The notes beneath the pieces were generated by a model. That model saw only the letters and a list, made by a program, of their open reading frames with translations, was not told where the DNA came from and made no database searches. Source: a virus. From it: a stretch of 33,763 nt of DNA. Numbering within the stretch: the first letter of the stretch is position 1; the number at the start of each line of letters is the position of its first letter. The stretch spans positions 1 to 33,763 of IMG/VR virus record IMGVR_UViG_3300010037_000002. The stretch is one strand, 5' to 3'. Positions 6,249-24,986 of the stretch are shown here, one piece after another. The position numbers and the translations under genes were made by a program.

Positions 6249-6285
6249 ATTTTGTAAATAAAAAATGCCGACCATTAATTAAAAC

Positions 6286-6348
6286 GCATCTCACCTCGTT
6301 TCTCTTAATAATCGGCTAATATCTTTTGAATCGCTTATTGTGAGATGC
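6286..6348 (-). repeat. Inverted repeat in the helicase-methylase leader
   Basis: GCATCTCAC (6286..6294) and GTGAGATGC (6340..6348) are perfect 9-bp inverted arms 45 bp apart. A second shorter complementary pair inside (AATAA and TTATT) can extend the pairing. The repeat lies between the -7 box at 6361..6368 and the methylase start, so the predicted transcript would begin at about the first arm. It may be an RNA structure controlling translation or an operator. Confidence 0.5.
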
Positions 6349-6360
6349 TGCGATTTGTTG

Positions 6361-6368
6361 CAAATATA
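6361..6368 (-). promoter_or_regulatory. Bacteroidetes-type -7 promoter box before the helicase-methylase
   Basis: The minus-strand reading is TATATTTG, a perfect TAnnTTTG. It sits just after the stop of the 80-residue gene and about 110 bp ahead of the methylase start, in one of the few real intergenic gaps of the region. No convincing -33 TTG is seen. Confidence 0.42.
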
Positions 6369-6369
6369 C

Positions 6370-6612
6370 TTATTTCAACCTGGTAATTATCCCTTTAATC
6401 GTAGTAAATTGCTTATTAGGCATTAATTTCCTAGCGTTAGTTAATGTTGATCTAAAATTATTATCATTAAATGGGTCTAACCAGCTCCCGTCAATAACAT
6501 AATGCTTTTTAATTAATTCATTCCGGCAAATACCCTCGTTTAATTCTAGTAAATCCAATTCATTTTTAATCAATGCTAATTTTGAATTAGGTAATTTTTG
6601 ATTCTTTTTCAT
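6370..6612 (-). CDS. Small basic protein (80 aa), unknown function
   Basis: Eighty residues starting MKKNQKLPNSKLALIKNELD, mostly helical and basic. There is an acidic DLLELNEG turn, then SWLDPFNDNNFRSTLTNARKL. The layout is compatible with a small winged-helix-like DNA binder, but there is no diagnostic motif. Its ATG overlaps the TGA of the broken HNH gene (ATGA at 6609..6612), so its expression may once have depended on full translation of that gene. Confidence 0.68.
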   Translation of the reverse strand: MKKNQKLPNSKLALIKNELDLLELNEGICRNELIKKHYVIDGSWLDPFNDNNFRSTLTNARKLMPNKQFTTIKGIITRLK

Positions 6613-7094
6613 AATTTACTTAATTCATTTTGATATGCTAAATGCGCATCGTATTCGTTTTTGAACAATCCTAAATATTTAGTTTTTTTGTTAATATAAA
6701 TCTGTGACATCCATTTATTTACCCCGTTCGCCCAACAAACACCAGTGTACTTACTACTGCTTTTAATGTGTTTTTTATTTGTGTTTTCTCTTTGAGTTAC
6801 TATTTCTAAATTTTCAACTCTATTATCTGAACGATTAAAATTCTTATGATTAATAACAACTGTTTTATCGTTATGTTTATGTTATAAAAAGTATTCAGAA
6901 ACTAATTTGTGTACTTTTTTTTCTTTTTGATTACCATGTTTACATAAAACAACACTTAGGTATCCATGCGTGTTATCTCTTTGTTTTAAAAACCTTATTT
7001 TGTTATTCTTTAAGCTTTTTACACGTCCTAAACTAGACACTTTATAAATACCCTCGTACCCATCTATGTCTTTCCATTTCTCTAACTTATTCAT
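6609..7094 (-). pseudogene. NUMOD4-HNH-AP2 homing endonuclease interrupted by one in-frame TAA
   Basis: From ATG at 7094 the frame reads a NUMOD4 domain (WKDIDGYEGIYKVSSLGRVK), then ...KVHKLVSEYFL, then TAA at 6882..6884. Without any frame change it continues with HKHNDKTVVINHKNFNRSDN, RVENLEIVTQREN (the HNH_3 catalytic core), and an AP2-like DNA-binding end (SKYTGVCWANG...YLGLFKNEYDAHLAY) to a TGA at 6609 that overlaps the next ATG. The full product would be about 160 residues. The 70-residue truncated product lacks the catalytic histidine/asparagine region. No good restart codon lies just after the TAA. This is a single nonsense change, a sequencing error, or read-through. Confidence 0.88.
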
Positions 7095-7579
7095 AATCCC
7101 AAACTTTTTATTGCTGATTCTGTTAGTTCTAAATCATACCTTGTTAATGTTTCGATATTTTCTGATTTACCATGATTCCTGAAAACGTGAGAAAACATTT
7201 TTTCAATAGGTTTGTTTGCGTCCAATTCATAAACTAGTATTCCGTTATAAAAGTCAATCCAACTTTGACTTAATTGAATCGTTATATTTTTAAACAAAAC
7301 CCTTTCTTTGGCTTCGTCATAATCTTCTTGACATCTTCCTTGACAAAAATCAACACAATACGTATTGTGCTTACACGGATCATTCAAAACATTACCGTCT
7401 TCATCACAAGGCACAAACATTCCAAGTGTAAGCGGTTGTTTTAGGAAATTGGCGTAACTTTCAATTACAGATAATGCTTTGTCGTTATCATAACTATCAT
7501 ATTCGTAATGTTTTGACTTTCTAAATTTTAGCTCTTTATTTACAAAATCAGTCATGCTGATTAATTTAATTTCTCTCAT
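7091..7579 (-). CDS. Cys-rich protein of unknown function (162 aa)
   Basis: I chose ATG at 7579 (MREIKLISMTDFVNKELKF). The frame runs back to a TTG at 7636, which would overlap the PP-loop ATPase gene. A cluster of cysteines in the middle (PCDEDG..., CKHNTYCVDFCQGRC) could bind zinc or an iron-sulfur cluster. The rest is alpha-helical with many aromatic residues. It follows the PP-loop ATPase gene directly and overlaps the HNH gene as ATGA. The pairing with a sulfur-chemistry-type ATPase is suggestive only. Confidence 0.75.
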   Translation of the reverse strand: MREIKLISMTDFVNKELKFRKSKHYEYDSYDNDKALSVIESYANFLKQPLTLGMFVPCDEDGNVLNDPCKHNTYCVDFCQGRCQEDYDEAKERVLFKNITIQLSQSWIDFYNGILVYELDANKPIEKMFSHVFRNHGKSENIETLTRYDLELTESAIKSLGL

Positions 7580-7616
7580 TTCTATATTTTTATCGGTTAA
7601 AATTGCTGTTTGCGGG

Positions 7617-8525
7617 TTAATAAATGTTATAATCAAAAAACGATTGCTGGTAGCTGGCTTGTTTCACTTGCTCATAATTTATTTCATTTTCTGTCGGATT
7701 ACGTTCTAAGTCATTAATACCGCAAAGTCCATTGCAATCAAATAAAGGTTCTACTTTACACGCTGGCATTTCGTCAATACTTTTTAGCTTAGGATAATCG
7801 GGGTGTTTTACTAAAAACACTAATTCGTTTCCACTTTCTTTTGCCTCTTTGCTTTGGTTTTTTAACATGGTTTTAGGCTCTCCGGCTTCATCTGTCAATT
7901 CGTGTTCAATTTCCGCCATGGCGTAAAACTTATCAGGAAAATCACGTTTCATTTTCTGCCAATATCCTACACCACCTTGAACGCATCCTGTTTTGAAGCA
8001 ATTATTGTTTTGAAAACCTAAGTGATACATATTCGGAACTTCAACCCCTGCGCTTTCAACTATTTCAATACACTGTTTTTTATCATAACCAAACATAAGT
8101 AACGGATAAATACCTTTTGCTTTTGGGTGGTTTTTATTCATTCCAAAAGCCCGGTTGAATTCTTTTTTCTCAAATTCAAATCCGAAAACTTGAAAAGTAT
8201 ATTCTGCTGTTTTTTGCCAATCTTCTCGGCATTTTCTTTTAAGAACACTTGAACAAATTGCACCCGTCGCTACATTTAGCGATAAATGTTTTTTCCATAC
8301 CGCTTGGATTGAATCGTACTTTTCTCCTATTGCTGAAATTATCTCAATCTCTTTGTTGTACCATTTTTCACAATCTAATTTGAAACGATAAGTATCATCG
8401 TCCTCGTTATTCGTGTCAATCATCATTATTCTACAACGCCCTACTCCATACAAATCAATCGCTAGTTTACAAGCTACAGCCGAAGTCGCGCCACCCGACC
8501 ACCAACATATGATGTCTTTTTTCAT
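7617..8525 (-). CDS. PP-loop ATPase, phage PAPS-reductase-like
   Basis: A 302-residue N-type PP-loop protein. The ATP-binding PP-loop is WSGGATSAV (SGGATS at 10-15), followed by the alpha/beta Rossmann-like fold (MMIDTNNEDDDTYRF). Cysteines occur at ICSSVLKRKC (91 and 99), in NNNCFKTGC, and in a C-terminal CNGLCG. Members activate a substrate by adenylation and are linked to sulfur transfer, as in PAPS reductases, tRNA thiolation enzymes and DndC. Phage copies are common, but their substrate is unknown. The classical CysH C-terminal cysteine motif is not seen, so a true sulfate-assimilation role is unlikely. It is downstream of the zinc-finger gene and upstream of the Cys-rich gene. Confidence 0.87.
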   Translation of the reverse strand: MKKDIICWWSGGATSAVACKLAIDLYGVGRCRIMMIDTNNEDDDTYRFKLDCEKWYNKEIEIISAIGEKYDSIQAVWKKHLSLNVATGAICSSVLKRKCREDWQKTAEYTFQVFGFEFEKKEFNRAFGMNKNHPKAKGIYPLLMFGYDKKQCIEIVESAGVEVPNMYHLGFQNNNCFKTGCVQGGVGYWQKMKRDFPDKFYAMAEIEHELTDEAGEPKTMLKNQSKEAKESGNELVFLVKHPDYPKLKSIDEMPACKVEPLFDCNGLCGINDLERNPTENEINYEQVKQASYQQSFFDYNIY

Positions 8526-17647: not shown

Positions 17648-18340
17648 TTAAAGTGTGTAATCTATTCTAACTCTAGCGTTTAATGTTATTGCTTTTTTAA
17701 ATGTAACTGTACTTCCTGATTGCGTAAAAGTTAATAAATCAGACTCAAAACCAACTGATTCTAAATCCTGAGGCGATTCATTTATCCATCCTTTAAACGC
17801 TACTGCGCCAGAAGGGATGACGTAAGATTGACCGCTGCCAGCATATCTTTTTGAAACTGGGCGAATGGTATTAAGATCTGACAAATTAGCCTTTAGTGCT
17901 AACGCGTTGAAAACAGCATTTTCACTCGGTGTGGTGCTTACAAATCCGGTTCTTATAAATTGCGTTATACCTGCTAATTCCACATTTATCGGTATTTCAA
18001 CGCCTATAAACCAATAAGAGCCATTCGATACTAATGCGTTTAATTCTTCTGTACACACGATTGTAGCGCCACCACTTACATTGTAAAAAGTACCCGCGCC
18101 AACCAATATAAATTCTTCTTGTGTTGTTGTCGGCAATGTTTCTCCATCCGCTACCGATACAGCTCTGAATCCAACGCCACCGGTAACAGATATGTAAGAA
18201 GTTAAAAAGTCGGCTAAAGATTGAACTGTTCCGCTTTTTAAATCAGCGCCAACTTCATGAGGTATTTTGTCGGTTAAATTAAAAGCAGCATCGGGTAATT
18301 GACCTACTCTTACCGTATTTACATCGTTTGGATTTATCAT
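17648..18340 (-). CDS. Tail fibre protein with shared anchor module (230 aa)
   Basis: The first about 45 residues (TVRVGQLPDAAFNLTDKIPH, then EVGADLKSGT) match the start of the neighbouring 182-residue protein, so they probably form a common attachment module. The remainder differs: beta-rich, with a C-terminal domain ending TFKKAITLNARVRIDYTL, typical of structural or fibre proteins. It is coupled to the upstream gene by TAATG. It likely forms part of the tail tip, possibly as an alternative adhesin. Confidence 0.75.
   Translation of the reverse strand: MINPNDVNTVRVGQLPDAAFNLTDKIPHEVGADLKSGTVQSLADFLTSYISVTGGVGFRAVSVADGETLPTTTQEEFILVGAGTFYNVSGGATIVCTEELNALVSNGSYWFIGVEIPINVELAGITQFIRTGFVSTTPSENAVFNALALKANLSDLNTIRPVSKRYAGSGQSYVIPSGAVAFKGWINESPQDLESVGFESDLLTFTQSGSTVTFKKAITLNARVRIDYTL
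18228..18274. repeat. 47-bp exact repeat in the fibre anchor module, copy A
   Basis: Identical over 47 bases to 18776..18822. It encodes the KIPHEVGADLKSGT part of both anchor modules. The surrounding sequence has diverged, so this segment is either conserved by gene conversion or recently duplicated. Confidence 0.9.
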
Positions 18341-18888
18341 TATAATCTCATTACTTGAAGTTCAACTAAATAAGGCTGCATGTTTTTATCCGTGCCACTA
18401 ACACCTACTACGCTTGTTGACCTTGAAAACGCAGCCCCAGAATTAATATTAGAAGCCGCATGCGTGTTTCCTCCTGATTGAAAAGACTCCGAATGCATAT
18501 CTACAGTATGCGAATGCGCCACAACTACCGCGTCCCTAGATCCGCCAGTTAATCCGACTACATTGCTTGTGACTCCATAAGCAACACCTACCCTGCCATC
18601 TTTGTTTATAGTTCCGTTGTTTCCGTTGCAAATAGCATATCCTAGCATTAGATTTACACCTAGTCCAGTGTCATCAAAGTTTGATGTTATATATAGCGTA
18701 TTTACGTGAAGTGTAATAACCTCGTATTGCATAGCTCCGATAAAGGGAGTTATAAATGCTATCAGCTCATCTATCGTTCCGCTTTTTAAATCAGCGCCAA
18801 CTTCATGAGGTATTTTGTCGGTAAGACTAAATGGCGATGGGGGCAATTCCCCAACCCTTACCGTTGTTATTAAATTTGGATCTATCAT
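18340..18888 (-). CDS. Tail collar-domain fibre protein (182 aa)
   Basis: The N-terminal anchor module is shared with the next gene (TVRVGELPPSPFSLTDKIPH...). The C-terminal half is a phage tail collar domain: GYAICNGNNGTINKDGRVGV, then VAHSHTVDM and the ending MQPYLVELQVMRL. Collar domains shape fibre tips in many phages. TAG and ATG are adjacent at the upstream junction. It probably assembles at the tail end as an adhesin or fibre component. Confidence 0.85.
   Translation of the reverse strand: MIDPNLITTVRVGELPPSPFSLTDKIPHEVGADLKSGTIDELIAFITPFIGAMQYEVITLHVNTLYITSNFDDTGLGVNLMLGYAICNGNNGTINKDGRVGVAYGVTSNVVGLTGGSRDAVVVAHSHTVDMHSESFQSGGNTHAASNINSGAAFSRSTSVVGVSGTDKNMQPYLVELQVMRL
18776..18822. 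repeat. 47-bp exact repeat in the fibre anchor module, copy B
   Basis: Partner of 18228..18274; same orientation and the same coding phase in the collar-domain gene. Direct repeats like this could let the two fibre ends recombine. Confidence 0.9.
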
Positions 18889-19401
18889 CTATATTTCGTT
18901 TGTTCTTATTATTTCGTTAACATCCCCATTATTAATAACTTCGTTCGGACTCCCTGAGTTCAAAACGGTAGTCCCTAATTTAGCCGTTAAAGGTTTGTGA
19001 AATCCAGATATTGATCCGGAAAAAGATATAAATTCGTCTATATTATTAGTTTCTGAAAGACTGCCTATATATCCTTTTCCGTAGTCGATTATCGGGTAAA
19101 TTGTACCTTGTATTTTCCAATCTAAAAGTATTTTATCTCTTTTTAACTGCTTTAATTTATCATAGCTGGCCACGCTGAAATTACCGCCTGACACGGTGGT
19201 GTTTAATTGAAGTCCGTTAAAACTAATACTGTAAGATTGCATTACCGGGCGTGAAGTTACCCATCCTTGGTTATCTCTCGTGGTAGTATCCATGAAATCT
19301 GAGGTTTCATCCATAGAATTGGATGTTAAACACCCTATCGGCAGCCAGTTGTTATTCTGTTTTAAAAATAAAATTCGGTCTTGTCCATTTGTAAAATCCA
19401 T
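18889..19401 (-). CDS. Second tail-tube-like protein (170 aa)
   Basis: Resembles the major tail tube protein (24108..24548) in layout. An ILFLKQNNNWLPIGCLTSNS start compares with ILYIYDDTIYRPVACLTKNS there. A central SYDKLKQLKRDKI aligns with SHDYLLSIQQLREPI, and both then have a beta strand and a ...FISFSGSISG versus ...STFTATLEGSG ending. It is encoded after the baseplate gene, so it may be a distal tube or baseplate ring rather than the main tube. The stop codon is TAG. The fold relation is inferred by eye. Confidence 0.72.
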   Translation of the reverse strand: MDFTNGQDRILFLKQNNNWLPIGCLTSNSMDETSDFMDTTTRDNQGWVTSRPVMQSYSISFNGLQLNTTVSGGNFSVASYDKLKQLKRDKILLDWKIQGTIYPIIDYGKGYIGSLSETNNIDEFISFSGSISGFHKPLTAKLGTTVLNSGSPNEVINNGDVNEIIRTNEI

Positions 19402-24557: not shown

Positions 24558-24986
24558 TTATATTAAAGTTAAATTTAATCTTAAAAATGATCTGAAAATA
24601 TTTTCTGTATCAGTAACTGTATCTAGCTGAGTTTCAAATGTTGTATTTTGAATAAGTGTTTTAAACCCTGTTATCGTTATTTTAGGCAACAATAAAGTAT
24701 AAACATCATGCTCAATATCATTTAATAAAACTCTACTGCCGGAGTTTCCGGCGCTTGATGTTTTGGTGTAAATCTCAATTAATAAAGAAGTTTCCCATTG
24801 GTACTCGCATTTATTCGGCTTTACAACTTCTTTTGTTTGAGAAGTCAATAACACGTATTCGTTTAGCTTATTGTTTCCTGTAACTCTGCTATCAAAGCAT
24901 TTTATGTTTTTACCTGATACGTTGATATTGTTGACTAAGTTGAAAACTGCCTTTCTAATAAATTTATCGGGATTTACTGTTACCAT
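24558..24986 (-). CDS. Tail terminator / completion protein (142 aa)
   Basis: The ATG at 24986 (MVTVNPDKFIRKAVFNL) is preferred over a GTG two codons earlier at 24992. A DUF3168-like layout is seen, with a helix after the start, beta strands CEYQWETSLLIEIYTK, a helix DIEHDVYTLLL and terminal strands. The place, between the HK97 gp10-like gene and the tube gene, is the usual position of the tail terminator that caps the tube. Assignment by position and overall pattern. Confidence 0.72.
   Translation of the reverse strand: MVTVNPDKFIRKAVFNLVNNINVSGKNIKCFDSRVTGNNKLNEYVLLTSQTKEVVKPNKCEYQWETSLLIEIYTKTSSAGNSGSRVLLNDIEHDVYTLLLPKITITGFKTLIQNTTFETQLDTVTDTENIFRSFLRLNLTLI

Follow-up and report, generated by a model that had tools for sequence, protein, structure and literature searches.

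A NUMOD4-HNH homing endonuclease gene interrupted by an in-frame TAA in a virus near phages of flavobacteria, and a candidate leader RNA upstream of its intact relatives

The locus and its interrupted frame

The window analysed here is a stretch of viral DNA of 33,763 nucleotides (IMG/VR record IMGVR_UViG_3300010037_000002, taken as a whole). On its minus strand lies a homing endonuclease frame that is broken by a single stop codon and overlaps a gene on either side:

7091..7636, minus strand: upstream gene, 181 aa, unassigned function; ATGA overlap with the start of the HNH frame
6609..7094, minus strand: interrupted NUMOD4-HNH-AP2-like homing endonuclease frame, 160 sense codons and one TAA
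6882..7094, minus strand: open stretch of 70 residues ahead of the stop; contains NUMOD4 and the first strand on the HNH side, without the HNH core
6882..6884, minus strand: in-frame TAA, codon 71
6612..6881, minus strand: 90 open codons past the stop; HNH_3 core and AP2-like end
6370..6612, minus strand: downstream 80-aa frame, orphan; ATGA overlap with the end of the HNH frame

Read from 7094 to 6609, the frame consists of an ATG at 7094 opening 70 codons, the TAA (6884..6882), 90 more codons, and a TGA. Its start shares an ATGA (7091-7094) with the end of the 181-aa gene, and its terminal TGA shares another with the ATG at 6612 of the next gene. A preliminary description of this DNA had given these coordinates and a frame continuing past the TAA to the overlapping TGA; re-reading the sequence bears out both, to which we add the strand (minus) that had been left unsaid. 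Ninety open codons past the stop are expected in 5e-5 of base shuffles of this DNA (26.7% GC), and the other two minus-strand frames of the same stretch hold 7 and 18 stops, so the openness of the post-stop frame is not due to chance. The HNH half has no hidden start of its own, as no restart codon (ATG, GTG, or TTG) occurs ahead of codon 129, and the viral record holds no second, intact copy of the gene elsewhere. Similar 12-base stretches at both gene ends (ATTATGAATAAG and ATTATGAAAAAG) were considered as a sign of duplication and not accepted as evidence, because starts of the form ATGAAAAAG are common.

The domains fall on both sides of the stop. NUMOD4 (Pfam, residues 5-50, 4.5e-17) is contained wholly in the 70-residue stub, and HNH_3 (Pfam, residues 77-104, 3.5e-7) follows the stop. 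The term AP2-like, already used in the preliminary description for the end of the protein, is fair: the Pfam AP2 match (residues 114-154) stays below the cut-off with 18 of 33.3 bits, but the family profile extends to structures of plant AP2/ERF domains (3.5e-5). Among solved structures, I-HmuI is the nearest (PDB 1u3e; profile match, E 1.4e-24). With NUMOD4 and an HNH core with its conserved residues present, and an uninterrupted frame absent (TAA at codon 71), the gene is, judged by its sequence, a free-standing NUMOD4-HNH homing endonuclease of the I-HmuI-like kind, and a broken rather than a working member.

Comparison with known systems places it among familiar company. I-HmuI of Bacillus phage SPO1 has the NUMOD4 and HNH arrangement in common with it over ~105 residues, whereas the window gene is free-standing, carries the AP2-like end, and is interrupted. 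I-HmuI itself is intact and intron-encoded. P12002L_0033, an HNH homing endonuclease of Polaribacter phage P12002L (56% identity over 96% of the length), is also free-standing but open throughout and set between other neighbors. The free-standing homing endonucleases of T4-like phages (the mob and seg genes) are, as here, nucleases between phage genes. A broken homing endonuclease of this kind is an ordinary case.

The virus lies near phages of flavobacteria: among isolates, its primase is closest to that of Tenacibaculum phage JQ (62%), and the SNF2-methyltransferase of the window has a counterpart with 79% identity in Flavobacterium columnare phage FCV-1. A PAPS-reductase-like gene (PHROG 424; window, minus strand, 7617-8525) lies immediately upstream of the operon that contains the broken gene. 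Elsewhere in the window, a major-tail-protein-like gene (minus strand, 18889-19401) ends in TAG and is followed directly by the in-frame ATG of the next gene (18340-18888); suppression of this TAG would fuse the two genes and add 182 codons. Genes adjoin in frame at 24558 and 28484 as well, and such an arrangement may be fortuitous.

Relatives of the gene and the state of its second half

Relatives at 38-61% identity were found in IMG/VR and among phage isolates. When aligned with these related phage HNH proteins, a check that the preliminary description had proposed, the stop column proved open: all 19 of the 19 close relatives examined in detail read through it with a sense codon. Among the 178 matched loci of the wider family, none supports termination at codon 71 as a family feature. 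Homologues all ending here had been named as evidence against an interruption, and their absence favors one.

The residue aligned with the stop is Asn or Gly in the nearest relatives and Pro in two distant ones, none of which has a codon one substitution away from TAA. In the wider family (178 matched loci) the column is variable, and residues one base from TAA are present as a minority. The earlier statement that one base change separates the window from an intact enzyme therefore holds formally, but not with respect to the codons of its nearest relatives, which are all more than one substitution away.

Three of the 178 matched loci contain stops inside the match. In one (L137) it is a single in-frame TAA, at a different place from that of the window. 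A second HNH relative (L249, 1501-1815) holds six in-frame TGA codons, several of them at glycine positions of the family, and its sequence suggests a virus with a host that reads TGA as an amino acid. The third (L268, 1501-1833) has one in-frame TAG and either uses a different genetic code or is a further interrupted copy.

An IMG/VR search for close copies of the region, using a pattern not fixed at the stop codon, returned nothing, and neither an intact nor an empty allele of the exact locus was found. Likewise, no relatives of the downstream 80-aa frame were found, so no empty site could be recovered through that gene. In host genomes, a single-sequence scan found no copies, and a profile scan found more distant ones. 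The family itself can be traced as an insert: an HNH relative in one locus (L043) is flanked by the counterparts of primase and of the 227-aa gene of the window, while these two genes adjoin with an empty junction in two others (L041 and L044) and in the window, and in a fourth (L056) an HNH relative follows soon after primase. These arrangements make the HNH gene family look like an insert that related phages may or may not carry between conserved genes.

The part behind the stop has not decayed. All 21 of its 21 conserved positions are kept, its 90 codons are free of any further stop, and its identity to the nearest relatives exceeds that of the pre-stop part. In simulations of random change, 10 substitutions keep the observed state in 4% of trials and 20 in 0.1%, suggesting that neutral change since the stop arose would have been limited to fewer than about 10 substitutions (about 4%). 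Taken with the undecayed half, the simulation implies that the stop is either recent or not real.

Explanations for the stop codon

TAA terminates 38 of the 47 genes in the window. As the usual terminator, it acts as a stop at codon 71 too and is not recoded; a virus that decodes TAA as an amino acid is ruled out, because TAA is neither absent nor rare in this role.

With a probability of roughly 0.68, we regard the gene as a free-standing NUMOD4-HNH homing endonuclease that lost its function not long ago through a nonsense mutation at codon 71. A freshly inactivated selfish gene had been among the four readings offered at the outset and is now the best supported of them, given the open relatives, the undecayed post-stop half, and a family that behaves as an optional insert. 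What was observed is the interruption, the family, the open homologues, the undecayed remainder, and the normal use of TAA; what we infer is that the virus itself carries the stop, rather than the consensus being wrong, and that the stop is recent. An I-HmuI-like HNH gene with an AP2-like end would have settled between two neighbors in a compact operon, and the mutation would halt translation after the NUMOD4 part, ahead of the HNH core. With no core translated, the phage would make no nuclease and the element could no longer home. In addition, the 270 untranslated bases from the stop to the next start would weaken translational coupling of the downstream gene. Lost coupling to the 80-aa frame is thus possible, and its effect may be nil because this frame is an orphan. 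Against recent inactivation count the lack of an intact or empty allele and the distance of more than one substitution to the nearest relatives' residue, which leaves no single step from the common form. Moreover, the stop is seen in only one contig, hence a consensus error is possible.

Such an error (in consensus or sequencing, or by a minority variant) is the main rival, though an unlikely one; most viruses of the sample would then be intact and the base in the contig wrong or a minority. A remainder without any decay fits this well, as does a single metagenome contig without a near copy for comparison. However, with Asn or Gly in the close relatives, one miscalled base could explain the stop only if the true residue were an unusual one, as those lying one base from TAA are a minority even in the wider family, and the long neighbor genes (primase and SNF2-methyltransferase) are unbroken.

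Far less probable is programmed read-through or recoding of the TAA to give low-level full-length enzyme, a possibility that the preliminary description had listed and that gained no support. The post-stop part looks selected, and the base following the stop is C, a context commonly considered leakier. Nevertheless, TAA is the normal stop here, the relatives do without read-through, no recoding element was found (no Rfam match in the window), and a single frameshift would not reach the post-stop frame, which continues in phase. Retention of the 70-residue stub as a small DNA-binding protein, for example a repressor or an anti-homing immunity factor, is equally improbable: the stub does contain the whole of NUMOD4, but no relative terminates at codon 71 and the post-stop part, which would be free to decay, is undecayed.

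Recent inactivation by a nonsense mutation would mean that the window shows a homing endonuclease just beginning to decay, a stage expected from the homing cycle; this matters little beyond annotation, where the 70-aa ORF should be labelled as an interrupted HNH gene.

A candidate leader RNA before intact relatives

Of greater importance than the broken gene is a candidate leader RNA, close to a promoter-like box, that is often present upstream of intact relatives. In its layout, a TAnnTTTG box is followed by a hairpin (loop ~8 nt), another hairpin with a loop complementary to that of the first, TTTTT, and the start codon. Examples are as follows:

L006 2904-2985: two-hairpin leader directly before an HNH gene
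L007 2576-2654: two-hairpin leader directly before an HNH gene
L008 2205-2292: two-hairpin leader directly before an HNH gene
L018 4528-4609: two-hairpin leader directly before an HNH gene
L040 6467-6548: two-hairpin leader directly before an HNH gene
L056 4753-4835: two-hairpin leader directly before an HNH gene
L281 11601-11683: two-hairpin leader directly before an HNH gene
L047 9934-10015: two-hairpin leader before a GIY-YIG-like gene (frame named by reading the sequence, not by profile search)

A descriptor of this layout, which demands the loop complementarity, gives 29 matches in the window together with 1.2 Mb of retrieved loci, versus 0 or 1 per dinucleotide shuffle. The promoter box was left out of the descriptor, and still 26 of the 29 matches lie after one, compared with 7% of random places. 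In an alignment of ten sequences (L224, L281, L047, and L230 found by the descriptor, the other six by eye upstream of HNH genes), 99.5% of cells pair and 16 of the 21 pairs change on both sides in a compensatory manner, whereas versions slid by 1-3 columns are only 25-46% paired. These figures call for some caution, given the complementarity built into the descriptor and the four rows that came from it.

The leader is present before the HNH gene of Flavobacterium phage tooticki6-1 and, in Polaribacter phages P12002L and P12002S, before another gene. FCV-1 probably has it as well: directly ahead of its HNH gene the covariance model gives a match, although a weaker one (E 0.02). No Rfam family matches the leader, and no description was found in the literature searched, most subscription papers lying outside its scope. 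Scanning two host genomes with the RNA model gave no hits, which is not informative either way.

We consider it probable, with somewhat less confidence than the inactivation of the HNH gene, that this is an undescribed class of 5′ leader RNA in flavobacterial phages: hairpins with paired loops after a TAnnTTTG box, followed by a U-run, before HNH, GIY-YIG, and other genes, including the SNF2-methyltransferase gene of the window (same layout, different sequence). The leader may act as a conditional terminator or as a put-like antiterminator. Several T4 homing endonucleases have upstream inhibitory hairpins, RNA structures, or terminators (PMC2988022), and the put RNA of HK022, located behind an early promoter, consists of two hairpins (PMC9378689). 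Both are analogues rather than demonstrated relatives; most described T4 hairpins hide the ribosome-binding site, whereas the flavophage leaders have paired loops, a U-run, and a start codon outside the fold. If true, the leader would be a new regulatory element, supported by covariation and shared by homing endonucleases of two unrelated kinds as well as by further phage genes, and it occurs in isolates that can be grown (tooticki6-1, P12002L, P12002S, and probably FCV-1).

The window's own element precedes the SNF2-methyltransferase gene, with a likely start at ATG 6248:

6368..6361, minus strand: promoter-like TATATTTG box, ahead of the two hairpins
6355..6261, minus strand: two-hairpin leader layout, 6-bp and 12-bp stems, then a T-run

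Its loops form a 9-nt pair, GCATCTCAC (6348..6340) with GTGAGATGC (6294..6286). The covariance model of the HNH-linked leaders does not detect this copy, Rfam has no match to it, and the nested fold of the stretch favors the 9-bp pairing alone. Given the miss by the model and this fold, the element may be related to the HNH-linked leaders in layout only. A leader of the same layout also accompanies a second SNF2 homologue (L032).
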